From NCBI GenBank assembly GCA_017403955.1, contig JAFRDH010000016.1:62001-126000 (forward strand): a stretch of DNA of 64,000 nucleotides, in the 5' to 3' direction. Positions 8,746 to 53,298 of the stretch are shown here, one piece after another. This DNA comes from Mogibacterium sp. GTDB taxonomy: Bacteria > Bacillota > Clostridia > Peptostreptococcales > Anaerovoracaceae. Each line of letters starts with the position of its first letter. Position 1 is the first letter of the stretch. The notes under the pieces are model-generated. The model was given only the letters and a program-made list of their open reading frames with translations, did not search any database and was not told where the DNA came from. The translations under genes and the position numbers were made by a program.

Positions 8746-9273
8746 TCACCAGGTAACGGCGATATCGATCTGAGTCGGATTTTTCTTTGCAAAACCGCCG
8801 GTATCACATACTATCGCATCACCAAGTGAAGTCTCTACTATGCTCCCTCTCGGTCTGAGATTAAGATTAGCAGCAACCATGATATAGTCTCCGAGCATTT
8901 TGCATCCATCATCTCTTACCCAGTATTCGTCAGTATTCCCCATGCTTCGCATAATACTTACGACGCCTGACATATTAAGATTATAGTAGGTCTCTTTGCC
9001 TGAAGGACCGTAGTTGACGCCTCTCCCCGGAGACAGGACCGGCCCCTTCCATCTGTTGAGTTCTTCGATATAAGCATCATAAGCAACTTTGCCATCAGCA
9101 ACAGGATCTTCAGCATCCATAACACTGACAGAAAGGCATTCGGTGATCGCATCGGTCGTCCGCGCGATTCTGTGTTCTTCAGAAATGGTGAAAATCGTAT
9201 CGATGCAATACAAAACAGATAAAAACTCCGCCGCTATTAGTATAATAAGAAGATTTTTCTTTAAATCACTCAT
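8746..9273 (-). CDS. 3D-domain (double-psi beta-barrel) exported protein
   Basis: 175 residues from the chosen start (MSDLKKNLL). A hydrophobic N-terminal segment (about 7-25) acts as signal anchor; the C-terminal 80 residues resemble the 3D domain of Firmicutes cell-wall proteins, with DYIMVAANLNLRPRGSIVET, then GDAIVCDTGGF and a terminal IDIAVTW carrying the characteristic Asp residues. 3D domains are found in Rpf/MltA-like lytic enzymes and in small YabE/YuiC proteins; the substrate here is unknown but peptidoglycan is likely. A TATAAT (9298-9303) just upstream favours this start over a GTG at 9360. No good ribosome site is seen. The domain call is moderately secure. Confidence 0.7.
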   Translation of the reverse strand: MSDLKKNLLIILIAAEFLSVLYCIDTIFTISEEHRIARTTDAITECLSVSVMDAEDPVADGKVAYDAYIEELNRWKGPVLSPGRGVNYGPSGKETYYNLNMSGVVSIMRSMGNTDEYWVRDDGCKMLGDYIMVAANLNLRPRGSIVETSLGDAIVCDTGGFAKKNPTQIDIAVTW

Positions 9274-9355
9274 GATTTTACTGTATATAACGATAATATT
9301 ATATCTGTAATATCGGTTGTTGATAAAAGTATACACCATTCCGAGGCAAAAAATA

Positions 9356-9392
9356 AACACAGAAAGTGCTGAAAAACAGCGGTTTCTGTGTT
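9356..9392. terminator. Strong hairpin terminator after the PfkB gene
   Basis: AACACAGAAA (9356-9365) pairs perfectly with TTTCTGTGTT (9383-9392), and an inner GCTG/CAGC closes a five-A loop. On the minus strand it is about 30 bases past the sugar-kinase stop and is followed by a T-rich tract. Confidence 0.75.
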
Positions 9393-9422: not shown

Positions 9423-10379
9423 TTATTTGCGGATATCGGAAGGGTTAGCCTCAAGAAATTCGATCACCTGCTCTCTCCTTCTGAGAGCAGCTCCGGCTCC
9501 GATCTTTGTAGTGCAGATCGCACCGCAGGCATTCGCAAACCTGAATGCACTTTCATGCTTGCTGCCTCTTAATATCTCAGAAATGAATCCTGCGATAAAG
9601 TTATCTCCGGCTCCTGTTGCATCTACAACATCCATCCGGTATGCAGGGATCATAAACGATTCTTCGTTGTTTCTGAAATAGCATCCCTTGCTTCCCAGCT
9701 TGATGATCACATTCTTTACACCATGTCCAAGGAAGACTTCAGCGGCAGCTTCCGGGTCTTCGTGACCTGTATAGTAGAATGCCTCGTCCTCATTTGGCGT
9801 GATATAGTCTATCATACTGAGAGAATCCGATATCTCGTCAAGTGTCAGTTTGCGGAAATTAGGCAGCTTGGTATCTGCAAATACCAGAACATTTTGTTCC
9901 TTTGCTGCCAGCAATACCTGCCTGATCACGTCGGGATCATTGAATGGCGCTCTGAAAAGCGATCCCAGTATCACAGCCCTGCTGTCAGTGAAAGCAGAGC
10001 AATACTGTTCCGGATGGAAATTATACTTATGAGACATATTGGTTATCGACTTGCGATTACCATCCTCAGTGACGAATATTGTAGTTATCGGGGTCGGGTG
10101 TTCGGCAGATCTTATGATCAGACTTGTGTCTACGCCGTTCGATGCCAGTTCATCACATATAATGTCACCTGCAGGATCAGTTCCGAGCGAGCAAAGGATA
10201 CCTGTCCTGAGACCAAGCTTTGCAGCAGCTCTTGCCTCATTGACAGCATCTCCTCCGACGTTAAGAGAACCTGACTCCGCCCTGTATCCTCTGACAGAAA
10301 CAGGTTCCGGATCAAATCCCCGTATTATTGAATCCATTATGGCCATTCCGATGCAGACCAAATCAAATTTACTGTCCAT
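9423..10379 (-). CDS. PfkB-family carbohydrate/nucleoside kinase
   Basis: 318 residues from the chosen ATG. The ribokinase fold signatures are both present: an N-terminal GGDAVNEARAAAKLG and a C-terminal DATGAGDNFIAGF with the catalytic Asp and anion-hole glycines. Family members phosphorylate sugars, nucleosides or sugar acids with ATP; the substrate cannot be read from the sequence. The start used here is one base after the stop of the DUF1097 gene, so the two are translationally coupled; the longer frame would overlap that gene. It ends an accessory cluster (LVIVD, EthD-like, flavodoxin genes) and could phosphorylate an alcohol or sugar released there, which is an inference from position. 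Confidence 0.85.
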   Translation of the reverse strand: MDSKFDLVCIGMAIMDSIIRGFDPEPVSVRGYRAESGSLNVGGDAVNEARAAAKLGLRTGILCSLGTDPAGDIICDELASNGVDTSLIIRSAEHPTPITTIFVTEDGNRKSITNMSHKYNFHPEQYCSAFTDSRAVILGSLFRAPFNDPDVIRQVLLAAKEQNVLVFADTKLPNFRKLTLDEISDSLSMIDYITPNEDEAFYYTGHEDPEAAAEVFLGHGVKNVIIKLGSKGCYFRNNEESFMIPAYRMDVVDATGAGDNFIAGFISEILRGSKHESAFRFANACGAICTTKIGAGAALRRREQVIEFLEANPSDIRK

Positions 10380-10380
10380 A

Positions 10381-10872
10381 TTATTTCTTACCGTTCCAGA
10401 TTCTGTGGATTTTGTCAAGCAATGCTCCTACATAGTATACACCAACAAGCATAGCAACTGCTATCTGAACTGTAAGACTGAGAAGCGGTGTCGTTTTATC
10501 CAGATTCATTGTCAGCATTCCAATAGCCCAGCCTGCAAGCCATGAAGGCATATGAATGAAATTCGGGGCCTTAGACGAGAAAATCACTACAAGGAATCCG
10601 AGTACCGCAAGAGTCAGAAACAGCGTGAGATCAGCGTTAAACGGCGTAGAAGCCATGATAATTGTCGCTGTATATGACCAGAGATCTCCAAGAAGATAAC
10701 CGAGCGCGATTTTGTGTGCGTCTTTGAAATTGTTGCCGTTAGTTGCGTAAATACCTGCAGCGATAAGTGCTATCGGTCCTACGGTGTTGCCCAGGTACGG
10801 ACTTGCTACAGCCCATATTGGCGGAAGAATGGCGATAAGTGCAGCCAGTGTGAGTATTTCTTTTCTGTTCAT
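10381..10872 (-). CDS. DUF1097-family membrane protein
   Basis: 163 residues, nearly all hydrophobic, with about five TM helices. The overall pattern (short start, LGNTVGPIALIAAGIYA, then MPSWLAGWAIGM and a basic end) matches DUF1097/YcdZ-type small membrane proteins, which often accompany catabolic or transport genes. Function in the family is unknown; small-molecule permeation is plausible. It is coupled to the PfkB gene downstream and is separated from the LVIVD gene upstream by a hairpin at 10891-10912. There is no strong ribosome site. The family call is tentative; the coding call is firm. Confidence 0.72.
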   Translation of the reverse strand: MNRKEILTLAALIAILPPIWAVASPYLGNTVGPIALIAAGIYATNGNNFKDAHKIALGYLLGDLWSYTATIIMASTPFNADLTLFLTLAVLGFLVVIFSSKAPNFIHMPSWLAGWAIGMLTMNLDKTTPLLSLTVQIAVAMLVGVYYVGALLDKIHRIWNGKK

Positions 10873-10890
10873 GTGATTCTTAAAAAGTTT

Positions 10891-10912
10891 GCGGCAGCCC
10901 GTGGACTGCCGC
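10891..10912 (-). terminator. Hairpin between the LVIVD and DUF1097 genes
   Basis: GCGGCAG (10891-10897) pairs with CTGCCGC (10906-10912), with two more C-G pairs inside. On the minus strand it is 8 bases past the LVIVD stop codon and is followed by AAACTTTTT, so it may terminate or attenuate transcription into DUF1097. Confidence 0.65.
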
Positions 10913-10919
10913 TTTTGTA

Positions 10920-12311
10920 TTAATCTTCGTATGTTTTTCTGAGGATATAGAATCCGTCACTGTTAGCGTCAATGATGATGTATCCTCTGTCGTCAACTAC
11001 AACGTCTTCCGTGCATGCCGGTGTAGGTCCCGGGAACGGGAAGAACTTGTGTACAGGATTCGGAGGAATGAAGTAAGCCTTCTCCTTGATGTAGAAAGGA
11101 TCGGAAACATCATATACTCTGAGTCCTGCGTGGAAGTAGCAGTCATATACTACATCGGTTCTCTGCTCGAGCCATGGCTTTCCATCCATTGGTTCATGGA
11201 GGTTATGAGGTCCGAACGGTCCGCCCTTTGAACCTTCTGCAAGGCAGTAGGTGTTGAAGTTAGGAGCCGGGAATCCTTCAGGTACCTCCGGGTACGGGAA
11301 CTGAGCAATGAGTACCGGATGTGTAGGATCGCTTACATCAACCATGTGGATATTATTCATAGCCTGTGCCTGATGAACCATACCGTCTTTGATGAATCCG
11401 AATCTCTCACCTTCGTTCATGACTACGCAGAGGTCTCTGCCCTTCAGAGGAAGAGCTGTGTGAGTCCTTGCTCCGGCAAGTCTTGATGAGAATGCCGGCA
11501 TGAACTTGAGCTGTCCGAGTGCCTTAGGTCTTGTGAAATCAGAAACATCGAGGATGTAGAGTCCGTCTCCGCCATATCCGAGATAAGCTTTGCCGTCCAG
11601 TACGAACGGAGGACCGTGCATCCAGCCTTTATCCATGAAGTCAGGATTATGAGGTGCCGAGTGATCTACCTCGCGTCCCGGAACTCCGTAGATATACTGA
11701 TGAGGTGCCCACCAGCGGCCGACTTCAGTAATGTTCTTAGGATCAGAAATGTCTACGATTCTGTAGATCATGCCTTCATGCTCATCAGCCTCTGCTGACA
11801 GATGAACATAAGGACCTCCGTTATACATGAATCTGTGAACGCCCATCGAATACGGAACTCCGCAGTCCCAATATCCGAGATAATCAGGATTCTCCGGATC
11901 ATTCTTGAGGTCATAGACCATGATTCCCTGGAGGCTCTTCATTTTAGCGCGGTCGCCTACGAGTACTCCCGGGCCGCTTCCTGATGTGAGCGCGAATACA
12001 AGCTTGTCATCAGCTATCTGAACTTTAGGGATCGAAGTAGTAGGATACTCCTCAATGTCGAACGGGCGCCACTTCTTGATAAATACAGGATTCGTCGGGT
12101 CGGTAACATCACTGATCATGATGCCTACTCCCTCAGGACCTGCTGCGAAAGCGGCTCCGTAAAGCAGATATCTGCCTGACTCGGTCTTATAAAGAGCCAT
12201 CTGGAACATGCCGGCTTTGCTGTCAAGATCACAGAAGCCGAGCACTTCGAGGTTCTTTATATAGCCGTCGTTGCCCTCGCCTTTTGAGTAGAAATATTTG
12301 CCTTTGCCCAT
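10920..12311 (-). CDS. LVIVD-repeat beta-propeller protein
   Basis: 463 residues, no signal peptide. At least five LVIVD-type blades are visible: GIMVYDLKNDPENPDYLG, YRIVDISDPKNITEVG, LYILDVSDFTRPKALG, IHMVDVSDPTHPVLIA and LRVYDVSDPFYIKEKA. Each has the V/I-D-V-S-D-P core of the family, which folds into a propeller. His-rich segments (for example DHSAPHN, FGPHNLHEPMD) between blades could bind metal. LVIVD proteins are uncharacterised; the fold is reminiscent of selenium-binding protein/methanethiol oxidase, but no catalytic Cys can be assigned. It starts 14 bases after the EthD-like gene with an AAGGAG site, so they are cotranscribed. Cytosolic location is inferred from the missing signal. 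Confidence 0.85.
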   Translation of the reverse strand: MGKGKYFYSKGEGNDGYIKNLEVLGFCDLDSKAGMFQMALYKTESGRYLLYGAAFAAGPEGVGIMISDVTDPTNPVFIKKWRPFDIEEYPTTSIPKVQIADDKLVFALTSGSGPGVLVGDRAKMKSLQGIMVYDLKNDPENPDYLGYWDCGVPYSMGVHRFMYNGGPYVHLSAEADEHEGMIYRIVDISDPKNITEVGRWWAPHQYIYGVPGREVDHSAPHNPDFMDKGWMHGPPFVLDGKAYLGYGGDGLYILDVSDFTRPKALGQLKFMPAFSSRLAGARTHTALPLKGRDLCVVMNEGERFGFIKDGMVHQAQAMNNIHMVDVSDPTHPVLIAQFPYPEVPEGFPAPNFNTYCLAEGSKGGPFGPHNLHEPMDGKPWLEQRTDVVYDCYFHAGLRVYDVSDPFYIKEKAYFIPPNPVHKFFPFPGPTPACTEDVVVDDRGYIIIDANSDGFYILRKTYED

Positions 12312-12325
12312 TTTGGTCTCCTTAG

Positions 12326-13201
12326 TTATCTCATCGTGATATATCCACGATACTGTGTGAGATTATCTGATCTTGCATAATCTGAGAGGAAAATGCCGCT
12401 GATTCCGTAAGACTTCTTGAGGTATGGGAAGTCCTCTGTCTCAGCCCATGCCGGCTTAGCGCACTTCTCAGCTGCTGCAGCTGCTGCTTCGCACCAAGCT
12501 GTCTGGCATTCGAACCACATTTCTACGATGCGGTCGAAATCGCAGTTGTTGACTTCCTTCTTGATTTTGCTTGAAACGCAGCGTGTGCATCCATCATGTG
12601 AAGTCCATGCAGGGATGAACTCTTCCTTGAGCCACTTGTCACCTTCTTCAGCGCTTACGCCTTCAGGATACTTGACCATGAACATCCATCTGTAGTTAGG
12701 TCCGTCTTCTACTGTGCGGCCTTCGCCCTTGAAGTCTTCTTCCCACCATACAGGAACGAATGCGAAGATGAACGGAACTGTTCCGAGGGACTCATCACCC
12801 TTTGTTGATCTTGCGTCATCGCCTTCAATATTGACTTCAGCAGACTTGTCGATTCCATGAGAATGTCCCATGTCAGGGATGTTATTCTGCCATACAAGAA
12901 CGTCTGTAGGGAAATACTCAGTGAGGATCTTGTGGTGATCCTTTGCAAATCCGATATCATTAGGATTTGCGAGCCAGTAGTGCTCTGTCATCTGCATTCT
13001 TACTGTTCCGAATCTTGCTCCGCCCGGAGGTGTAGGAAGTGCAGGATAGAAAGCGTACTTGCTTACATATGGTCCGAACTGTGAGATGCTGTCAGGAACA
13101 TGATATCTGTACAGCCAGTTCTCGAGTTTGATTCTGTAGTCCTCATGAGCAAGGTCTACCAGAATGATACTTCTTACAGGATAAAAATCAGGTCTGTTCA
13201 T
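12326..13201 (-). CDS. EthD-like tandem alpha/beta-barrel protein of unknown function
   Basis: 291 residues, cytosolic. Two halves look like repeated ferredoxin-like (dimeric alpha/beta barrel, EthD type) units: the first with RSIILVDLAHEDYRIKLENW and GTVRMQMTEHYW; the second with NYRWMFMVKYPEGVSAEEG and DRIVEMWFECQTAW. Between them is a His-rich stretch (MGHSHGID). Such barrels serve as enzymes for polyketide-like, heme or small aromatic substrates; no specific family is recognised. Four Cys residues lie in the second half (CTRC near 209, then C near 221 and C near 232), possibly structural. A good AAAGGAG site precedes the ATG, and the gene is followed closely by the LVIVD gene. Confidence 0.7.
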   Translation of the reverse strand: MNRPDFYPVRSIILVDLAHEDYRIKLENWLYRYHVPDSISQFGPYVSKYAFYPALPTPPGGARFGTVRMQMTEHYWLANPNDIGFAKDHHKILTEYFPTDVLVWQNNIPDMGHSHGIDKSAEVNIEGDDARSTKGDESLGTVPFIFAFVPVWWEEDFKGEGRTVEDGPNYRWMFMVKYPEGVSAEEGDKWLKEEFIPAWTSHDGCTRCVSSKIKKEVNNCDFDRIVEMWFECQTAWCEAAAAAAEKCAKPAWAETEDFPYLKKSYGISGIFLSDYARSDNLTQYRGYITMR

Positions 13202-13223
13202 CGAGTAATTCTCCTTTCAAGCT

Positions 13224-13243
13224 AAGGATCCGACCGGATCCTT
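13224..13243 (-). promoter_or_regulatory. Hairpin just upstream of the EthD-like gene's ribosome site
   Basis: AAGGATCC (13224-13231) pairs with GGATCCTT (13236-13243) with a four-base loop. It lies immediately before the AAAGGAG ribosome site on the minus strand. It may stabilise the 5' end or modulate translation; this is inference. Confidence 0.45.
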
Positions 13244-13258
13244 TAAATTGTATAAAAG

Positions 13259-13288
13259 CAGGCAGAGAACTGTTGTGTCCCCTGCCTG
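13259..13288 (-). terminator. Terminator after the flavodoxin-type reductase gene
   Basis: CAGGCAG (13259-13265) pairs with CTGCCTG (13282-13288). On the minus strand it lies about 20 bases past the stop and is followed by CTTTTATAC. It partly separates the reductase from the EthD-like/LVIVD pair. Confidence 0.6.
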
Positions 13289-13308
13289 TTCTTATCACTT
13301 AATAATTC

Positions 13309-14301
13309 TTATTTCTCCTTGGATGGGGATGGTGTAGGAGCGATTACGTTAGTGTAGTGCTCTTTACGTGCCTTGAACTCAGGGTCCTTGAAGAGGTTCA
13401 TGAGTCTGCCCTCATTCTCAAAGATGTCCTTTCCGTGAGCTGCTTTGCCGGAAAGCAGATCGTGGCAGTGTTCGATAGTTCCGTTTTCACCAAGTTCAGG
13501 ATCGTTTACCAGCTTCACGCCTTTGTCTGTCAATTCAAGGTGGCCTTCAAGACCGCAGAGCTCACAGACAGCATGGTTTGTACCAGGGAAAATGTAGAAA
13601 TTGTTGCCATGGCAATGTGGGCATCCGCCTTCCTCGCCCTTCCAGAGATCCAGATTCTCGGAACCCGGAATCATGACATTGTTGTCGATGATGTACTGAG
13701 CAGCTTCAACAAGGTTTCTGCCGATTTCTTTCATGCGCTCGACCTTATCGTCCTGCATGATAACATCCTTGCTCCAGGAGAAGTAGTCGTTGTTGATCAC
13801 CTTCCAACCCGGGGACAGAGACAGCATTGCATGGTCTGTCTCTACACGGCATGCCCAGTCAGAACCACCGATACCAACATATGAAGTAGCCTTCTGTCTG
13901 AAGTAACGAGGATTCAGGCCTTCTTTGCCCTGTTCTTTCAGTTTGCCATCGAGCATCATGAGCATACCTGTATCGTGTCCAGGCCCCATTCTGTCGCAGA
14001 TAATGTGGAAGAGTCCGGATCCGCCGGATTCATAGATAGGATCTACTACGAGTAAGCCGTCAGCTTCTACAATTTTCTCATAAAGAGCCTTGTAATCGTC
14101 CTTTCTTGTGCAGATCATGCCCTTGCCCATTACGAGTCCTCTTGAGCATGCTACGCAGCCTGTACATGTCTGGATGTCCCAGTCAAAAAGGTGGATGAAT
14201 TCGATTTCTGCGCCAAGCTTCTGGCACTCTTCGAGTGCTACACGGCACATAGTGTCATTGTTACCATTCTTGGTTCCCAGTGAAATTCCCAGAATCTTCA
14301 T
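13309..14301 (-). CDS. Flavodoxin-fold NAD(P)H:FMN-type reductase with zinc-ribbon extension
   Basis: 330 residues. The first 190 match the NADPH-dependent FMN reductase/iron-sulfur flavoprotein fold: MKILGISLGTKNGNNDTM phosphate loop, CTGCVACSRGLVMGKGMIC with closely spaced Cys residues (typical of the 4Fe-4S or flavin-proximal Cys cluster), and VDPIYESGGSG. The C-terminal part (about 230-270) adds a separate zinc ribbon, CPHCHGNNFYI...CELCG, not usual in the family. It probably reduces a small substrate with flavin electrons. A GGAGGG site precedes the ATG. It heads the cluster with the EthD-like and LVIVD genes downstream. The flavin-fold call is firm; the substrate is unknown. Confidence 0.83.
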   Translation of the reverse strand: MKILGISLGTKNGNNDTMCRVALEECQKLGAEIEFIHLFDWDIQTCTGCVACSRGLVMGKGMICTRKDDYKALYEKIVEADGLLVVDPIYESGGSGLFHIICDRMGPGHDTGMLMMLDGKLKEQGKEGLNPRYFRQKATSYVGIGGSDWACRVETDHAMLSLSPGWKVINNDYFSWSKDVIMQDDKVERMKEIGRNLVEAAQYIIDNNVMIPGSENLDLWKGEEGGCPHCHGNNFYIFPGTNHAVCELCGLEGHLELTDKGVKLVNDPELGENGTIEHCHDLLSGKAAHGKDIFENEGRLMNLFKDPEFKARKEHYTNVIAPTPSPSKEK

Positions 14302-14350
14302 TTTTTCCCTCCGTTAGTTATAATTTGATATCTACAGCGATTAGTTGTTA

Positions 14351-14420
14351 GTTATTTGTAACTGTTGTTACTATGTTACCATTAATTTATAATTGTTTCG
14401 AATTGTTTTTTATCGAAACA
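14351..14420 (-). promoter_or_regulatory. Repeat-rich region upstream of the flavodoxin-type gene
   Basis: GTAAC and GTTAC half-sites recur: GTAACTGTTGTTAC (14358-14371) is an inverted pair, overlapped by GTTATTTGTAAC (14351-14362) and followed by GTTAC at 14375-14379. A separate hairpin TGTTTCGA/TCGAAACA spans 14394-14420. LysR-type regulators bind T-N11-A dyads and a LysR gene lies about 1.5 kb upstream, so these may be operators. No clear -35/-10 pair could be fixed. Confidence 0.4.
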
Positions 14421-14427
14421 CTTGAAA

Positions 14428-14886
14428 TCAGTGCTGTTCAGGCTCATTGCAGATAGATCTTGAGAGCTTGTCAGCAACCGGATTCCAGAGGAATGCTACA
14501 ACATAGGAAGCGATGAAGCATGGGATGAATCCGCCAAGTACAGCCTTCCAGTATTCGCTCATAGGAGCATGAGCTGTAACAACAACACCAAAGTATGTCA
14601 TAATGAGATCAAGAACAATTGTGAAGATCAGCGCAATGACCAGATTTACGAGCAGTCCGAACTTAAGAGTGTTCGGCTGTGAGTGCTTCATTGCAAATCC
14701 AACGCCCCATTTGCCTACAGGCAGGAAATTCAGGACGAATGTTACAACATAAGCCAGGATGCAGCTTGGAACGAATGCGCCCATGTTCAGATTACCACCG
14801 AGTGCCAGTGCTACGATAGTAACAATTATTGACAGTGGCAGGTCCATGATCAGTGCATATACAGCAGTAAGTTTCTTACTCTTCAT
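14428..14886 (-). CDS. DUF2798-like four-TM membrane protein
   Basis: 152 residues from the chosen ATG, which follows a GGGAGA site; a longer TTG frame lacks one. Four hydrophobic helices form two similar pairs: LPLSIIVTIVALALGG with FVPSCILAYVVTFVLN, and VIALIFTIVLDLIMTY with FIPCFIASYVVAFLWN. The repeated (I/F)P-x-C/F-I-x-(A/S)YVV motif shows an internal duplication, the layout of DUF2798 proteins. The function is unknown; membrane permeation or assembly of a small-molecule system is possible. It sits just upstream of the reductase gene and downstream of LysR, from which it is separated by a strong terminator. Confidence 0.7.
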   Translation of the reverse strand: MKSKKLTAVYALIMDLPLSIIVTIVALALGGNLNMGAFVPSCILAYVVTFVLNFLPVGKWGVGFAMKHSQPNTLKFGLLVNLVIALIFTIVLDLIMTYFGVVVTAHAPMSEYWKAVLGGFIPCFIASYVVAFLWNPVADKLSRSICNEPEQH

Positions 14887-14956
14887 AATACTTGTTCTCC
14901 CTTCACAAACAATCAATGAATTCTTTTGGTCTCTTCTATAAAATCGTTAAAAAACA

Positions 14957-14996
14957 AACAGTTGACCTGTGTATAGTCTAACTCAGATCAACTGTT
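14957..14996 (-). terminator. Strong intrinsic terminator of the LysR gene
   Basis: AACAGTTGA pairs with TCAACTGTT, extended by CTG/CAG with one G-T pair (about 13 pairs in all). On the minus strand it lies 40 bases past the LysR stop and is followed by TTTGTTTTTTT. It isolates the metabolic cluster from the alaS-ruvX-LysR transcript. Confidence 0.85.
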
Positions 14997-15038: not shown

Positions 15039-15965
15039 TTATGAATCAGTATTTTCAATAGCTGCAGCGATTTTTTTCGCCTCCTGTTCACAAATCACCT
15101 GCTTCAGGATCTCTTCCAGAACATGTACCGGTTCACTGTTTTTGTTCCTCATTCTTACTGTTGAAACGATGTCCCTGGAATTAAATGGTATCCATGCAAG
15201 ATCTGCGGCATTCTTTGCCCATATCCATTCATCGAATATAGCAACGCCCATATTATTTCTGACACAAGTGACCGCTGACTCGTGATTCTTTACAAATGTA
15301 AGCTCAGGTATGAAACCATAAGGACGCGTATACGAAGCTGTCGCTTCTATGATCAGTTTGTCTACTATCTGCCACGGGGCGATAAAAACATCTTTGCTGA
15401 AGTCTTTGAGTGTGATGCCTTCCTTCCCTGCAAGTCTGTGATTGACTGAGAACAAAAGGATCTTATTTATCTCAGCTACATCGGTGCAAATGAATTCCGG
15501 AAAATGTTCCGCAGAATTCTTCATCGTTACAATGATATCAAGAGAATCTGTAAGGAGTGAAGAAGTCAGCTCTTTGACCCCGCAGCAGTTTATAACAATA
15601 TTGGACTCCGCATAAATCGCCTTGAATTTCTCCATCATCGGCGGAATGATATTGAACAGATCCCATCCTTCGAGGAACCCTACCCGCACTGTGCCCTTTT
15701 TCTTGCCAAGCAGCTCTGCTGCTTCAAGCTTCGTGTTGATCAGGTCAGCTTTATATCTGCTGAAGAGATCAAAATACAGCTTACCTACTGCTGTAAGTTC
15801 TGTTTTCTGATTATTACGTACGAACAGTTTGGCTCCAAGTTCTTTTTCAAGCGAAGAGATCTGCCTTGAAATGGCAGGCTGAGATACGAAAAGTTCCTCC
15901 GAAGTCTTCGTAAAACTCTTGTTTGTGGCTACAGCCATGAAATAATCGATTTGCAGATCATTCAT
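15039..15965 (-). CDS. LysR-type transcriptional regulator
   Basis: 308 residues, the typical length. The N-terminal winged helix-turn-helix (FTKTSEELFVSQPAISRQISSLEKELG region, with SQPAISRQI as the recognition helix) and the C-terminal two-lobed effector-binding domain are complete. LysR proteins usually activate a neighbouring catabolic operon in response to its substrate; the candidate target is the DUF2798/reductase/EthD-like/LVIVD/DUF1097/PfkB cluster downstream. The gene starts 18 bases after ruvX, so it is likely cotranscribed with the alaS operon, an unusual arrangement for a dedicated regulator. The ribosome site (GGTGATT) is weak. Confidence 0.88.
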   Translation of the reverse strand: MNDLQIDYFMAVATNKSFTKTSEELFVSQPAISRQISSLEKELGAKLFVRNNQKTELTAVGKLYFDLFSRYKADLINTKLEAAELLGKKKGTVRVGFLEGWDLFNIIPPMMEKFKAIYAESNIVINCCGVKELTSSLLTDSLDIIVTMKNSAEHFPEFICTDVAEINKILLFSVNHRLAGKEGITLKDFSKDVFIAPWQIVDKLIIEATASYTRPYGFIPELTFVKNHESAVTCVRNNMGVAIFDEWIWAKNAADLAWIPFNSRDIVSTVRMRNKNSEPVHVLEEILKQVICEQEAKKIAAAIENTDS

Positions 15966-45025: not shown

Positions 45026-45922
45026 TTATCTGAAATCCGCTGTTTCTATGCCTTCACTTCTTACGATTTCCCTCATTTCTTCCATTCTTGCCGGTGATGG
45101 TGTAAAGAAATCAGGATGATCATAAGGTATTCCGAGTGCTTCGTATTTGACGATACCAAATCTGTGATACGGAAGCAGTTCCATCTTAGCTCCCGGAAGA
45201 TTCTCATGGACAAAGGCTGCAGATGCCCGGATGTTTTCATCGTCATCGTTCACCCCGCCAATAACAGGTATCCTTATCACCTTCTCCGCTGCAAAGTGTT
45301 TTAACCCGGAAATGTTTTCAAGAATAACAGCATTATCGACTCCCGTATAATATAAATGTTTGCATGGGTCCATATGCTTTATATCCATGAAGATGAGATC
45401 CATTCGCTCAAGTGATCTATACACTTTATCCATGTCGAAATAGCCGGAACTCTCTATATCGAGGCTGTAACCCATTTCGTATAGATTCTCTGTCAGATAA
45501 TCCAGGAACTCAGGCTGTCCTGTAGCTTCACCTCCGGAAAAAGTCACCCCTCCTCCGCTGTATGAATAGAACAGTCTGTGCTTGTGTATCTCTGATATTA
45601 CATAATCCGCATCAACATATGACACCAACTGCATTCTTGCATTCTGTGGACATATATCGGCACACTTTCCGCAAGCTATACATTTCTCCCGCTCAGGGTT
45701 CATATCGATCCCAATATTCTCAGGGCATACTTCGGTACACATCCCGCAGCCTATACATTTGCGCTTATACCACCCTATCTTCTCTGCTCTGGTGAAGCCT
45801 TCGGGATTCGAGCACCACTTGCACCTTAGAGGACATCCGGCCATAAAAATCGTTGTCCTTATCCCATCCCCGTCATTGACAGAAAATGGCTGTAATTGCA
45901 TTATATAGCCCTTAACACTCAT
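45026..45922 (-). CDS. Glycyl radical enzyme activating enzyme (radical SAM)
   Basis: 298 residues. Radical-SAM motif GCPLRCKWCSNPEG (C-x3-C-x2-C) near residue 30; two ferredoxin-like clusters, CIGCGMCTEVCP and CIACGKCADICP, between about 55 and 95 as in CutD/HpdA-type activases; then GGGVTFSGGEATGQPEFL for SAM binding. It generates the glycyl radical on the partner enzyme encoded five bases upstream. It is the last gene of a lysC-GRE-activase set. Secure as an activase of a non-PFL glycyl radical enzyme. Confidence 0.95.
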   Translation of the reverse strand: MSVKGYIMQLQPFSVNDGDGIRTTIFMAGCPLRCKWCSNPEGFTRAEKIGWYKRKCIGCGMCTEVCPENIGIDMNPEREKCIACGKCADICPQNARMQLVSYVDADYVISEIHKHRLFYSYSGGGVTFSGGEATGQPEFLDYLTENLYEMGYSLDIESSGYFDMDKVYRSLERMDLIFMDIKHMDPCKHLYYTGVDNAVILENISGLKHFAAEKVIRIPVIGGVNDDDENIRASAAFVHENLPGAKMELLPYHRFGIVKYEALGIPYDHPDFFTPSPARMEEMREIVRSEGIETADFR

Positions 45923-45927
45923 GACTG

Positions 45928-48300
45928 TCAGAACTCCTCATGCGCATTTCTGGCCATGATCGAGTCCTGCATCTCCCTGGAGAGATTGGTGAACTGTGCA
46001 CTGTAGCCTGCGACACGGACGAGAAGACTCCTGTATTTGTCAGGATTCTTCTGAGCATCTTTGAGGACTTCATTGGATATAGTGTTGAACTGTACATGGA
46101 ATCCGCCAAGAGCGAAATAACTCTGGAGCATCGCTCCGAGATTGGCTCTTCCTCTCCTTGTAGCGACCAGATCGTGATTCAGTCTGAGGTTGAGCAGAGT
46201 TCCGCCGCTATGCATATCATGATTCATTTTGGCAGCGCTTCTGAGAGCAGCAAGACATGTGGATGTATCGCTGCCTGTATAAGGCGAAACACCTTCGTTG
46301 ATCGGATCCTTGGCATACCTTCCTTCAGGTGTTGCCCCGAGGACTTTACCTGTAGGAAGATAGTTCGAAATTCCCATGAACGCAGTAACAAAATGATTGC
46401 CGTAGAGATCGTTATATCCGGTGACCTCATCATAGAAGAAATCAGCAAGATCTCTGGCTATTGAATCCACATAATCATTGTCATTACCGTATTTAGGACA
46501 TGCAAGAGCTTTTGCTCTCAGGCTTTCATGACCTTCCCAGTTATCATTCAGCGCATCAATAATATCCGCCATAGTAGCTGTTCCTTCTTCGAAAACAAGC
46601 TTCTTGATGACAGCGAGCGAATTGGCTGTTACAGAAAGGCCTACACCTGTGAAAACAGGTCCTATATTATACTTAGCTCCACCGTCAACGAGATCTTTTC
46701 CGTTCTTGAGGCAATATTCATTGCAGGCTGACATAAACGGTCTGTGGCCGATTTCCTTGTGGATCTCCTGTGCTGTAACGAGGCTGATAACTCCGTGCCT
46801 TACAAGATATCTGAACTGCTTCTTCCATGCTTCGATGATCTCTTCCAGGGAAGTGAACGTTCTCGGATCCTTCTCAGGCAGGCTTACCAGTTCTCCGCTG
46901 AGACGGCTTTTACCTTCATTGAGCGCAAATTCAAGGGCTGCGGCAAAACTGATACTTGCAGCTGATGTCCACTCGAACGTTTTGCGAGAATGAGGAACGA
47001 CGCATCCGCAGTTGTTCCAGTCTCTGGCGTCTTTCGGCTCATAGCCTAGATTGGACAGCATCTGATATCCTGTACGGTCGCCATGGATCGCCGGGAATCC
47101 GCAGCCTGTTGAAACGAGCTCGGTGACAGCTGCCATGAATTCAGGCGGACAGTCAGGATGTATCCTGCAGCTCAGTGTAGGCTGGTGAGTCATACATTCT
47201 CTTGTAGCCTGTATCGCCATGAACGAAATATCGTTGGTCGCATCCGTTCCGTCGACTTTAGTTCCTCCGATCGTAAGGTTCTCAAAGTTAGTATAACCTG
47301 CAAAGAAGCTTGCAGTATTCTTGGAGATAGTCCACGCCCATTCACTATATTTCAGCCACAGGCATTCAACCAATTCAAGCGCTTTGTCATAGTCAATGGT
47401 GCCCTCGTCAAGATCGTGCTTGTAGTATGGATACATGTACTGGTCAAAACGACCCGGGTTCCAGGCAAGCGGGTTTTCGGAGATAATACCACCAAGCTGA
47501 ACGAACCACACGAACTGAATAGCCTCTCTGAAGCTCTCAGGAGCGTTCTCAGGGATTTTAGCGCAGATCGCAGAGATTTCCTCGAGTTCTGTCTTCCGGA
47601 CCGGATCAGGCTCATTTTGCGCCATTTCAGCCGCCTTGGCAGAGTAGCGTCTGCCGAGAGTGATCATTCCGTCTGCGATCAGGATAATAGACTTGTAGAA
47701 ATCGATTTTCTGTTTCTCTTCAGGGATAGCTTCATCAAGAGCAGCAATATGATCAACCGCTTCTGCTTTGATGCCGCCGTATCCCTTCGGCAGCAGGACA
47801 TCTATATAATCAGCAGAGATCTCACCAATGCCATTTCTCCACTTTGAGTCTGTATCGAGAAATCCCGTATCTACACCGATTTTCTTGGTTGCTTCGGAAG
47901 TTCTGGCAAGGAAAGCTTCTTCGATAGATTTGCCCTTCCAGTACGGGAAGATATTCTTGCGGATAAACTCTGTCTGCTCAGGTGTTACATCGTACGGGTC
48001 CTGCCCTCTTTCAGGGAAAGTATCGATCTCATCGTTTATCCAAAGCCAGCCGAACTCAGGAGTCAGAATAGCGCATTTACGGTATTCTCCACTCGTTCCA
48101 ACGACAAGTTCCCCTTCCCAGATATTGACCGAAAGCTCTTCGCAGGTGTCTTTGAACGCCTGTGCAGTTCTGACGATATGAGGCTGCCCTTCAGTCCTCT
48201 GGAACGATTTGGTCCAGCTCCAGGCTCTTTCATAAGAAATATGAGGCTTGGTATTTACATAATTCTGCCTGATTTTCTCTACTCTTTCTGTGATTGCCAT
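45928..48300 (-). CDS. Glycyl radical enzyme of unassigned substrate
   Basis: 790 residues, cytosolic. C-terminal glycyl loop LVRVAGYSAQF (Gly about 765) and thiyl-cysteine loop NNCGCVVPHSRK (Cys about 433). Dehydratase-type members (CutC, PduC-like, HypD, IslA) have GCVE at this loop, with Glu two residues after the Cys as base; here that position is Val. HPA decarboxylase has GCLE. So it is outside those classes by that marker; related classes without this Glu include pyruvate formate-lyase and X-succinate synthases. The N-terminal half keeps TEGQP and ERA blocks common to the dehydratase/decarboxylase branch. An activase follows it immediately, and aspartokinase precedes it by about 30 bases. 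Substrate: unknown. Confidence 0.9.
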   Translation of the reverse strand: MAITERVEKIRQNYVNTKPHISYERAWSWTKSFQRTEGQPHIVRTAQAFKDTCEELSVNIWEGELVVGTSGEYRKCAILTPEFGWLWINDEIDTFPERGQDPYDVTPEQTEFIRKNIFPYWKGKSIEEAFLARTSEATKKIGVDTGFLDTDSKWRNGIGEISADYIDVLLPKGYGGIKAEAVDHIAALDEAIPEEKQKIDFYKSIILIADGMITLGRRYSAKAAEMAQNEPDPVRKTELEEISAICAKIPENAPESFREAIQFVWFVQLGGIISENPLAWNPGRFDQYMYPYYKHDLDEGTIDYDKALELVECLWLKYSEWAWTISKNTASFFAGYTNFENLTIGGTKVDGTDATNDISFMAIQATRECMTHQPTLSCRIHPDCPPEFMAAVTELVSTGCGFPAIHGDRTGYQMLSNLGYEPKDARDWNNCGCVVPHSRKTFEWTSAASISFAAALEFALNEGKSRLSGELVSLPEKDPRTFTSLEEIIEAWKKQFRYLVRHGVISLVTAQEIHKEIGHRPFMSACNEYCLKNGKDLVDGGAKYNIGPVFTGVGLSVTANSLAVIKKLVFEEGTATMADIIDALNDNWEGHESLRAKALACPKYGNDNDYVDSIARDLADFFYDEVTGYNDLYGNHFVTAFMGISNYLPTGKVLGATPEGRYAKDPINEGVSPYTGSDTSTCLAALRSAAKMNHDMHSGGTLLNLRLNHDLVATRRGRANLGAMLQSYFALGGFHVQFNTISNEVLKDAQKNPDKYRSLLVRVAGYSAQFTNLSREMQDSIMARNAHEEF

Positions 48301-50797: not shown

Positions 50798-52741
50798 TCA
50801 CTCTTTGCGTTGTGCGTATATGTCTCCGAGATCATCGAAGAAGTCAAACAATTCGTTGAAAAGCGCGTTACTCTTTTCTTTATCTGAATTTTCCGGTATA
50901 CGGAATTGAATAAATGCCAGGTCTCTGAGTCTGTGGCCTCTCACTGTTGCGAAGAATGTCCCGCACGGACAGACAAATACTCTTGCAGGGTCTATGAATT
51001 GTTTTTTGGCATTACGAATGAACAACTTCGGCTCTCTGCCCTCAGGGAAAACGGTTCTGTATAATCGATTGCCGCAGTATGGGCAGCGATATGCTGATGC
51101 ACTATAGTTGCTGACTCTTTCGCCCCATTGACCTGCAGGAACGAGGCCTCCCGGAAAATCGAAAACATGTTGATATCTGATCGGATCAAGTGTGTAGTGA
51201 TCCCAAAGAAGTGTACGCAATCTGCTTCTCTTCAGCTCAGAGATTGAGTCCATTAAATATTTATTCTCGCCAAGCGCTGTTATAAGCGCTGTGAAATTTT
51301 GCTTGGCCTGTTCAAACAGATATGCGGCATGTTCTATGTTGCCGGCTGCAGCATGTCGCTGCCCTTCCCTCAAATAAAGTATTCCGGGATTCGCACTTGA
51401 TGAATATACACCCTGTCTCAGCAGTATATTCATAGCCTCCTGAAGCATAACAGCAAAATGGCCGGCTTCTTCGATTTCCTCATAAGGCAGCATCGCCACC
51501 GGGTCTCCTACCATCTGAAAGAGTATTTCATCCGCAGTCCTGAACAGACTTGACGCAATACTTGCAGCCTCATCAGCAGTCTCAGGAGTCTCTTTAAGCT
51601 GTTCGTATAATAGTTCTGCAGCTCTTTTCCTCCAGTATTGTGACGCGTTATGATTCTCTGCAATGATATATCCATGATCAATAGCCTGAGCGATTCTCAG
51701 CATTGCATACGGGTGTCCCCATTCAACTGCCTGAACGAAAAGCTTATATGACAGATCCACATTACGTTCTGTCCCGTTTCCTTCCTGATATGCACAAGCG
51801 AGCATATACAAATGATCAGCACTGTAACCGGAGTGATGGTTGCCATTCAGTGTTTTCATTGTTTCGATTGCCGCGACTATACGAACTATGTCCCCGAAAT
51901 AAACAGGCTGAAGAAGCGGATATGCCATTCTGAATCGGACCGGATCGGTTTCTTTCATAAATACAGCGAACATCTGCTTATTCTCTATTACTGCCTGTTT
52001 ATACTCACATTCCAGGACATAGTTGCCCGGTTCGAGCAGTTCAGGTGTAGCCACAAACAGCACAAAATCGGAATCACTGAGTTTCTCCGAAATCTGCTCA
52101 TTGAAATCTTCGCCGGGATACAATGCGTTGTCATACCAAAGAGAAACATCCAGCATCTGATGATATGAGCGGATCTCCTTAAGCAGCATTGTGAGCTGAA
52201 GGTGATTCTTCTTGCGATAGCTGACAAAGCCTTTTAACGAGAAAATATTGTTGAATAGCTGTTTCTGCTCGTCGGAAAGGCCGATCATGTGATATAGATT
52301 GATACGCTGATCGATAAAAGCTTTTAAGTTCTCCTTGTAATGAGTGTCTCCTCTCTTGATTATCTGCAACGAACCAACGGTCTGATCAAAAAGTCTTTCA
52401 ATTCCTTCTTCGACCTGGACCGGCATGATCTTCATTCTGCACCTTAATGCGATATCAAGGACAAAATCTTTTGCAGGATTTCTGCTACTGAGAAATGCTC
52501 TTGAAACTATGAAAACAATAAGGTTCATTTCTTCAAGAAGCGATTCCAGTTCCGCCCCGCTCAATGACTCTTCCCGGCAATTCGAGCAATAAATGGTACA
52601 GTCATACACTTCGAAGATGTCATTGATAATACTTCTTGTGTATCCGGAATCTGCAGGGTGAAAGAATATCCCTACTTTATCTTTTTCCAGCAAAAGTCTG
52701 CTGCCATTATCATAAATCGAGAATAATTCGTTGTAACTCAT
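50798..52741 (-). CDS. Double-TIR, Sel1-repeat, zinc-ribbon protein
   Basis: 647 residues from the ATG inside the gene; the longer frame runs through a REP element. Order: TIR-like domain 1 (about 22-120; KVGIFFHPADSGYT, LIVFIVSRAFLSS); TIR-like domain 2 (about 168-290; GFVSYRKKNH, SDFVLFVATPELL, YVLECEYKQAV with Glu residues at the place of the catalytic Glu in NADase TIRs); Sel1-like repeats (about 306-376; YMLACAYQEGNGTERN, AVEWGHPYAMLRIAQ); a helical region; and a zinc ribbon (CPYC at about 553, CPC at about 591) followed by a coil. TIR proteins with repeats and zinc fingers occur in bacterial immunity and signalling. No immunity gene is adjacent except endonuclease V. Function is unknown; the domain calls are by eye. 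Confidence 0.72.
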   Translation of the reverse strand: MSYNELFSIYDNGSRLLLEKDKVGIFFHPADSGYTRSIINDIFEVYDCTIYCSNCREESLSGAELESLLEEMNLIVFIVSRAFLSSRNPAKDFVLDIALRCRMKIMPVQVEEGIERLFDQTVGSLQIIKRGDTHYKENLKAFIDQRINLYHMIGLSDEQKQLFNNIFSLKGFVSYRKKNHLQLTMLLKEIRSYHQMLDVSLWYDNALYPGEDFNEQISEKLSDSDFVLFVATPELLEPGNYVLECEYKQAVIENKQMFAVFMKETDPVRFRMAYPLLQPVYFGDIVRIVAAIETMKTLNGNHHSGYSADHLYMLACAYQEGNGTERNVDLSYKLFVQAVEWGHPYAMLRIAQAIDHGYIIAENHNASQYWRKRAAELLYEQLKETPETADEAASIASSLFRTADEILFQMVGDPVAMLPYEEIEEAGHFAVMLQEAMNILLRQGVYSSSANPGILYLREGQRHAAAGNIEHAAYLFEQAKQNFTALITALGENKYLMDSISELKRSRLRTLLWDHYTLDPIRYQHVFDFPGGLVPAGQWGERVSNYSASAYRCPYCGNRLYRTVFPEGREPKLFIRNAKKQFIDPARVFVCPCGTFFATVRGHRLRDLAFIQFRIPENSDKEKSNALFNELFDFFDDLGDIYAQRKE

Positions 52742-52758
52742 TTTATTACCTATCATTT

Positions 52759-52800
52759 GTGTCAGAAAGAACCGTCCCCGGTGACACACCCGGTGACACA
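52759..52800. repeat. REP-like repeat: GTGTCACCGGGGACGGTTC-type
   Basis: The core GTGTCACCGGGGACGGTTC reads across the minus strand and is followed by a second partial GTGTCACCGGG copy; GTGTCAG at the other end makes it roughly palindromic. Similar short sequences recur in many clostridial genomes as REP-like elements. The last codons of the endonuclease V gene lie in it. Confidence 0.6.
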
Positions 52801-53298
52801 CCAGTCTCTGGCGTATTTGTCTGCGAGTTTGACAAGATAAGGCAGACGATTCTCACCGGCCATACCTGCTACTATAGATTTGGCTTGTTCGTGGTCAATG
52901 CCCTTGCAAGTCACAAAAAGTGGTTTGAGGCTGGTGCCGCGAAGGACTTCTGTATTATCTATAAAACACAGGGCATAATGTGTTTTGGCTATGCCTATGA
53001 CAGGTATATGATACTCTTCGAATACATGTGCGCCGAGCGATCTTTCCTCCGTTCCGAAGTCTGCATATCCGTCTACAATGATGAGATCTACCTTCTCAGG
53101 GTCAAGCTGGCTGAGGATCGCTTCTACGCATTGGAGTTCTCTCTTGTAGAACTGCCCCGGACAGTATTCCTGAATGTCTTCGACCTCAGCCGTAACAACT
53201 CCGGATATTTCATCATCAAGCGGTGTTTCGCATATTATTCCTGCAACGTGACCCCTGTGGGTCGACTCATCATAATCTGCATCGATAACTACTATCAT
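52762..53298 (-). CDS. Endonuclease V-like protein (deoxyinosine 3' endonuclease)
   Basis: 178 residues. EndoV-like blocks: VIDADYDES at the start (first Asp), EYCPGQFYKRELQCVEAIL (Y-V/C-PG-F-x-K-REL; conserved Glu), DLIIVDGYADFG (second Asp), GAHVFEEYHIPVIGIAKTHY, and LPYLVKLADKYAR near the end. It cleaves DNA at inosine or related lesions. It is shorter than E. coli Nfi, and the last 12 residues (VTGCVTGDGSF) come from the REP-like repeat, so the true C-terminus was replaced or extended. It lies 19 bases downstream of the TlpA-like gene in the same operon. The family call is fairly firm. Confidence 0.82.
   Translation of the reverse strand: MIVVIDADYDESTHRGHVAGIICETPLDDEISGVVTAEVEDIQEYCPGQFYKRELQCVEAILSQLDPEKVDLIIVDGYADFGTEERSLGAHVFEEYHIPVIGIAKTHYALCFIDNTEVLRGTSLKPLFVTCKGIDHEQAKSIVAGMAGENRLPYLVKLADKYARDWCVTGCVTGDGSF

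Follow-up and report, generated by a model that had tools for sequence, protein, structure and literature searches.

An LVIVD beta-propeller protein as a candidate auronol hydrolase in a probable flavone/flavonol catabolic cluster of Mogibacterium

What does a Mogibacterium sp. degrade with a run of genes that lie on one strand beside a LysR-family regulator? The run occupies positions 9423-14916 of a stretch of 64,000 nucleotides (contig JAFRDH010000016.1 of assembly GCA_017403955.1, positions 62,001 to 126,000 of the forward strand), which is termed the window here. The host genome is a draft of 2.2 Mb. A first-pass annotation had described six poorly characterised families in this run (DUF2798, a flavin reductase with zinc ribbon, an EthD-like protein, LVIVD, DUF1097 and a PfkB kinase) and suggested a pathway for a small aromatic or sugar-like substrate. 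We reassigned two of the proteins to flavone reductase (FLR) and bacterial chalcone isomerase (CHI). The locus is almost certainly a conserved flavone/flavonol catabolic cluster, and the LVIVD protein is tentatively proposed to hydrolyse a C-C bond of an auronol.

Flavone reductase and chalcone isomerase in a conserved gene set

The supposed flavin reductase is, by its alignment to solved structures, a member of the flavone reductase family. Residues 1-323 of 330 align to residues 1-305 of the 310-residue chain in PDB entries 7D38, 7D39, 7D3A and 7D3B (E 3.3e-75), and the full-length similarity extends into the C-terminal tail past the flavodoxin-like domain. These structures are the FLR of Flavonifractor plautii (Yang et al. 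2021, PMC7862272); here and below, statements about papers refer to the portions of them that were consulted. Mutation of G106, W149, H271 or I275 strongly cut or abolished the activity of the F. plautii enzyme (PMC7862272). All four residues are kept in the window, and a check of 18 residues against the characterised enzyme gave 12 identical and 6 different. In Pfam, the FMN_red match (8.7e-16) agrees with a flavin reductase, while the zinc ribbon stayed below threshold (0.013).

The protein described as EthD-like is, on its profile matches, a member of the bacterial chalcone isomerase family. Chalcone_N (PF18232) was matched with E 4.9e-49 and 165.4 bits against a cut-off of 25 and was the sole Pfam match at E <= 0.1; a match to EthD was absent. 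The similarity to the CHI of E. ramulus reached 1.7e-90. H34 aligns with the catalytic His33 and is invariant in 8 sequences, one of which is just 26% identical. The E. ramulus enzyme converts taxifolin to alphitonin via ring contraction (PMC9694015). Since the two relabelled proteins are FLR and CHI, the locus was read as an anaerobic flavone/flavonol catabolic cluster. The aromatic part of the predicted substrate range thereby survives in spirit, and the description as poorly characterised still fits the LVIVD, DUF1097 and small membrane proteins, which are the uncharacterised members; FLR and CHI come from enzyme families already characterised in flavone and flavonol breakdown (PMC7862272, PMC9694015).

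The same two families carry the FLR-CHI flavone/flavonol catabolism of F. plautii and E. ramulus (PMC7862272, PMC9694015). The locus tags of FLR and CHI are consecutive in F. plautii (A4U99_05915, A4U99_05920), and two FLR-CHI pairs plus an unlinked LVIVD gene occur in E. ramulus ATCC 29099. In contrast, the window has LVIVD directly 3' of CHI, and the run also includes DUF1097 and the small membrane protein. LVIVD is not named in the consulted portions of the literature on the F. plautii and E. ramulus system, and among the open-licence papers searched, titles and abstract openings showed no link between LVIVD and flavonoids. Six open reading frames on the minus strand and the LysR gene upstream in the reading direction confirm the one-strand arrangement described before, and the LVIVD, DUF1097 and PfkB labels were upheld by Pfam. 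Along the reading direction, the order is LysR, small membrane protein, FLR, CHI, LVIVD, DUF1097 and PfkB, with 14 nt between CHI and LVIVD and 1 nt between the DUF1097 stop and the PfkB ATG. The features are as follows.

15039..15965, minus strand: LysR-family regulator (Pfam HTH_1 6.7e-20, LysR_substrate 3.1e-13); a broad family
14957..14996, minus strand: inverted repeat with 16-nt arms, then a T run, 3' of LysR; probably the LysR terminator
14428..14886, minus strand: small membrane protein, at most DUF2798-like; alternative TTG start at 14916
13309..14301, minus strand: FLR
13259..13288, minus strand: terminator-like hairpin in the FLR-CHI gap
12326..13201, minus strand: CHI
10920..12311, minus strand: LVIVD beta-propeller protein (PF08309, 1.3e-11); proposed auronol C-C hydrolase
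10891..10912, minus strand: terminator-like hairpin in the LVIVD-DUF1097 gap, detected on both strands
10381..10872, minus strand: DUF1097 membrane protein (PF06496, 2.4e-19)
9423..10379, minus strand: PfkB-family kinase (PF00294, 1.4e-59), ATG at 10379, alternative TTG at 10418; neighbour outside the conserved unit

Conservation of the set was analysed in 30 regions from 28 genomes, 22 of them in the genus of the window, which we selected from LVIVD, CHI and FLR matches. Gene labels are best BLAST labels, and many of the genomes are drafts. LVIVD was labelled in 26 regions, FLR, CHI and LysR in 25 each, the small membrane protein in 21 and DUF1097 in 20, and PfkB in none. Within a distance limit of 8 kb, chosen by us like the 6 kb used below, the window order without PfkB was found in 11 regions, and LVIVD and DUF1097 were swapped in 5. 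The conserved core is thus LysR, the small membrane protein, FLR, CHI, LVIVD and DUF1097. We also inspected 80 LVIVD loci on titled contigs, the best 80 of 184 LVIVD relatives. At 44 of them, CHI and/or FLR lies on the same strand within 6 kb. Outside the genus, these 44 include Baileyella, Emergencia, cryptic C. difficile strains, Clostridium puniceum, a Hungatella metagenome-assembled genome (MAG) and an Enterococcaceae MAG, with several gene orders. The closest LVIVD relatives among the 80 come from sheep, goat and RUG-series MAGs called Mogibacterium or Clostridiales; the host is likely a ruminant-gut anaerobe.

At the genome level, LVIVD and CHI occurred together far more often than separately. 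Among 148 relatives, each was found in 37, with 35 genomes carrying both, 2 LVIVD alone, 2 CHI alone and 109 neither (Fisher p 3.9e-29, a value inflated by shared ancestry); FLR was found in 40. When counted by genus (81 genera), LVIVD and CHI were present in 5 each and shared by 4 (p 1.5e-5). In 391 genomes across the class, a sample that partly overlaps the first, LVIVD was found in 4 and CHI in 6, and all 4 LVIVD genomes carry CHI (p 1.0e-6, own genome excluded). The co-occurrence beyond chance that the first-pass annotation had asked about is therefore seen for the FLR-CHI-LVIVD core, which recurs across the genus and in other genera with other gene orders, so that its conservation reaches well outside this strain. 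The family identity of FLR and CHI, the conservation, the co-occurrence and the neighbourhoods are established at the level of sequence.

As a separate observation, the loci L039, L056 and G036:C94 (genomes G005, G034 and G036) have FLR 74-75% and LVIVD 79-80% identical to the window proteins and a CHI that is just 48-49% identical, suggesting replacement of CHI within an otherwise retained cluster.

The LVIVD protein and the proposed auronol cleavage

From the reactions reported for the two known enzymes, FLR would reduce the C2-C3 double bond, giving a flavanonol from a flavonol. CHI would then take the C3 proton and convert a flavanone to a chalcone, or a flavanonol to an auronol by contraction (taxifolin to alphitonin). 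Open alphitonin is a 1,2-diketone, and on chemical grounds cleavage at the phloroglucinol ring should give 3,4-dihydroxyphenylpyruvate. Goris and Braune (2024, PMC11170127) proposed the same compound as product of alphitonin cleavage. They reported that quercetin is converted to 3,4-dihydroxyphenylacetate by C. decagia and to 3-(3,4-dihydroxyphenyl)lactate by C. scindens (PMC11170127); CHI is not listed for these two species in the abstract of that paper. A 2025 paper in ISME J expects alphitonin cleavage from an unknown enzyme (PMC12203004), and the consulted portions of the open-licence papers that we searched contained no named alphitonin-cleaving enzyme.

We tentatively propose that the LVIVD protein fills this step as a metal-dependent C-C hydrolase of auronols (alphitonin, maesopsin), with a retro-acylation like that of phloretin hydrolase on an unrelated fold; the proposal rests on sequence comparisons and falls somewhat short of an even chance. 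The protein, which we infer to be a seven-bladed propeller hydrolase with a metal site, would cut the ring-opened auronol between its carbonyl and the phloroglucinol ring and yield phloroglucinol and an arylpyruvate. A 2-oxoacid:ferredoxin oxidoreductase, a phosphotransacylase and an acyl kinase could convert the latter to arylacetate with formation of ATP. Alternatively, a 2-hydroxyacid dehydrogenase could form aryllactate. New here is LVIVD as a single candidate gene for auronol cleavage, together with a predicted product and downstream enzymes. Quercetin and other flavonols are among the common plant phenolics of gut and rumen, and it is documented that they can be converted anaerobically to 3,4-dihydroxyphenylacetate (PMC11170127). 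If the proposal holds, metagenome surveys could separate the auronol route from the dihydrochalcone route, a possible ATP gain from flavonols would be accounted for, and part of the LVIVD repeat family would have a defined enzymatic role.

The LVIVD protein has 463 residues and no signal peptide by eye. PF08309 was matched with 44 bits against a cut-off of 20.2, and one stretch passes the cut-off by itself. At E <= 0.1, the only other match was a sub-threshold one to Beta_propel; PF18089, the phloretin hydrolase/PhlG family, was not matched. The repeat motifs suggest seven blades. Across 83 distinct LVIVD sequences, H159, H284, H369, E300, E302, R303, E435, D436, Q37, K96 and Q98 are invariant and H232 (82 sequences) and H372 (81 sequences) nearly so. 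Several invariant residues appear to open successive blades, as ligands in a central channel would; this describes a pattern and not a site. By profile, the nearest solved relatives are the haloalkylphosphorus hydrolases 5HRM (5.9e-9) and 5IOJ (1.3e-8), which we take to be seven-bladed propellers with two metal ions; a search with the window LVIVD sequence alone reached an E of just 0.028 at best. The similarity is weak and patchy, and the substrates of these hydrolases are phosphotriesters, whereas a C-C bond is proposed for LVIVD. Phloretin hydrolase performs the same kind of C-C hydrolysis as proposed here, with unrelated sequences.

The genes around LVIVD in other clades fit a 2-oxoacid product. 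In the Hungatella MAG (L119), one same-strand run contains a CbiA-like gene, three 2-oxoacid:ferredoxin oxidoreductase subunits, a phosphate acyltransferase, an acetokinase-family kinase, LVIVD, FLR, DUF1097, CHI and a transporter. Genes of these kinds also cluster in the Enterococcaceae MAG (L109), in G265 (L143) and on one contig of C. puniceum (L102, L181), where the oxidoreductase alpha subunit resembles the single-chain type of locus L144. In P. paucivorans (L178) and G525 (L185), FLR, CHI, phosphotransacylase and kinase lie together and LVIVD is on a separate contig. Locus L137 has the order CHI, CHI, 2-hydroxyacid dehydrogenase, LVIVD. The oxidoreductase, the dehydrogenase and their companions act on 2-oxoacids. 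Because the clustered enzymes handle a 2-oxoacid and auronol hydrolysis would yield one, we propose a 2-oxoacid as the LVIVD product. The genome of the window has a cassette of a CbiA-like gene and a three-subunit oxidoreductase on another contig (G000:C22).

A second pattern came from genomes in which CHI is present and a LVIVD match is missing (G039, G097, G305 and G365). The CHI of G039 is a piece on a small contig, and the neighbourhoods were read for the other three. All three (L040, L144, L145) encode a short protein related to PhlG/phloretin hydrolase within 3 kb of CHI. These PhlG-like proteins are of about 206 residues and stay below the Pfam cut-off (L144, E 0.0015; L145, E 0.00026); the protein of L040 is 76% identical to that of L145. 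In G097 and G305, oxidoreductase, phosphotransacylase and kinase also lie beside the PhlG-like gene. A PhlG-like gene linked to CHI where LVIVD is missing is the pattern expected if both proteins can fill one slot.

Independently of these loci, type III CoA-transferase genes stand beside FLR and CHI at L183:11419-12633 (PF02515, 2.3e-83) and L186:10285-11514 (1.6e-80), with LVIVD elsewhere in both genomes. Another activation of a product is possible there.

Alternative readings of the LVIVD protein

Several observations weigh against an auronol hydrolase. In the protein itself, H394 is variable among the 83 sequences, and the 5HRM match is a sum of four weak pieces, the best with 12.5 bits. 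As for the neighbourhoods, both CHI and FLR are missing within 6 kb at 36 of the 80 LVIVD loci. These loci sit in 35 genomes; CHI was found elsewhere in 25 of them, including E. ramulus and E. oxidoreducens, and was not found in 10, many of which are drafts (the underlying CHI search covered 40 loci in 39 genomes, 29 with CHI). In G059, a LVIVD protein of 48% identity is accompanied by a transporter and an old-yellow-enzyme relative, and CHI is absent. Conversely, G305, G365 and G097 carry CHI and FLR and no LVIVD, which means that some CHI pathways do without LVIVD. C. puniceum, which carries both LVIVD and a PhlG-like protein, and a weak PhlG-like frame on another contig of the window's own genome speak against a simple substitution. 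Finally, the oxidoreductase alpha gene belongs to the core of the genus (39 of 47 members, including some that lack LVIVD) and occurs in 103 of the 148 relatives, and kinase homologues are common (117 of the 148). With the alpha subunit and the kinase so widespread, the downstream steps are possible in the host and not tied to the window, and an oxidoreductase after LVIVD in L071 is weak evidence. For the same reason, the alpha subunit was rejected as a specific marker and the acyl-kinase gene (AckL) as a genome-level marker.

Among the alternatives, a different step for LVIVD in the same pathway deserves most attention, although we consider it unlikely. LVIVD would then be a dihydrochalcone hydrolase that replaces phloretin hydrolase, or an isomerase, racemase or tautomerase for the substrate or product of CHI. 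The co-occurrence with FLR and CHI is equally compatible with this, and the lack of a PF18089 match above the cut-off in the host genome, which has just the weak PhlG-like frame, would agree with a replaced phloretin hydrolase. Neighbouring genes for 2-oxoacid oxidoreductase and hydroxyacid dehydrogenase, on the other hand, are not needed after dihydrochalcone cleavage. Moreover, the FLR cluster of G108 (L051), in a single case, combines FLR and DUF1097 with a full phloretin-hydrolase-family gene (PF18089 above cut-off) in a genome without matches to CHI or LVIVD. This cluster resembles the operon-like FLR-Fcr-Phy set of C. butyricum (PMC11868195), which likewise starts with an FLR-type step. 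The C. butyricum set has no CHI and follows the dihydrochalcone route, in contrast to the auronol route proposed for the window.

The cluster might also serve other phenolics, with FLR and CHI of altered specificity and LVIVD acting on a matching non-flavonoid compound. The identity of FLR to the characterised enzyme is moderate, with the six differing residues given above, and some LVIVD loci that lack CHI have other neighbours, either ABC transporter genes together with a short, distant relative of CHI or an old-yellow-enzyme relative. We nevertheless find this improbable, as FLR keeps the residues critical for activity and CHI its catalytic His, and FLR-CHI pairs and LVIVD are found in E. 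ramulus and E. oxidoreducens, the former being a documented quercetin degrader (PMC11170127). The ABC transporter sets, at L125 and L126, are of the branched-chain type; no CHI was found in the genome, and a different substrate of these LVIVD proteins is possible.

LVIVD could, thirdly, be no enzyme at all and act as a cytoplasmic flavonoid-binding or scaffold protein. LVIVD repeats have been described in cell-surface proteins (PMC2447325). The invariant His, Glu, Asp and Arg residues in the 83 sequences and the weak profile match to a hydrolase argue for catalysis, and this reading appears very unlikely to us. A single six-gene pathway around a PfkB kinase with a sugar-like or nucleoside-like substrate, as suggested in the first-pass annotation, can hardly be maintained: PfkB starts 1 nt past the DUF1097 stop and may be co-expressed in this genome, but it was found in 0 of 30 regions and 0 of 80 LVIVD loci, which rules it out as a conserved pathway member, and FLR and CHI have been assigned.

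Since PfkB lies outside the conserved unit, the sugar/nucleoside part of the earlier substrate prediction is unsupported. The best solved-structure match of the kinase is 3h49, YdjH (1.6e-53).

Hairpins and neighbouring genes

The earlier suggestion of terminators between the gene segments was borne out for the presence of hairpins in the FLR-CHI and LVIVD-DUF1097 gaps and only in part for their conservation. Terminator-like sites numbered 9 per 8.5 kb compared with 5.7 +/- 2.5 in shuffles, a modest excess. The stem core of the hairpin at 13259-13288 recurs in 5 of 22 FLR-CHI gaps of relatives; the remaining gaps had a different hairpin (6), no hairpin (10) or no gap (1). A stricter tail rule missed the hairpin at 10891-10912. 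In the LysR gaps of relatives, a stable hairpin with a T-rich tail was seen in 16 of 20. The counts in relatives are without a shuffle control.

The DUF2798 label of the small membrane protein at 14428-14886 was not reproduced, with no PF11391 match in Pfam even at E <= 1. Two of its relatives gave sub-cut-off DUF2798 matches (E 0.21 and 0.28; 11.7 and 12.1 bits vs 23.5). Speculatively, we infer that this protein and DUF1097 might act as transporters or membrane partners. DUF1097 genes accompany FLR in two kinds of cluster, one with CHI and LVIVD (several LVIVD clusters) and one with a PF18089 hydrolase (L051:8439-8984); a role at the membrane in handling phenolics is hinted at. Because DUF1097 also stands beside FLR and the phloretin-hydrolase-family gene of G108, it was rejected as a marker for the auronol route.

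Three further loci of the window, all on the minus strand, were recorded. A small protein without Pfam match at 8746-9360 has homologues in 16 of the 30 relatives' regions round the flavonoid cluster. A glycyl radical enzyme is encoded with its activase at 45026-48300; the enzyme stays below all NCBIfam equivalog cut-offs, the nearest family being the choline trimethylamine (TMA)-lyase CutC (685.8 bits vs 1050). A TIR-domain protein (PF13676, 3.4e-8) with a weak Sel1 repeat match is encoded at 50798-52801 and adjoins an endonuclease V-like protein at 52762-53298.

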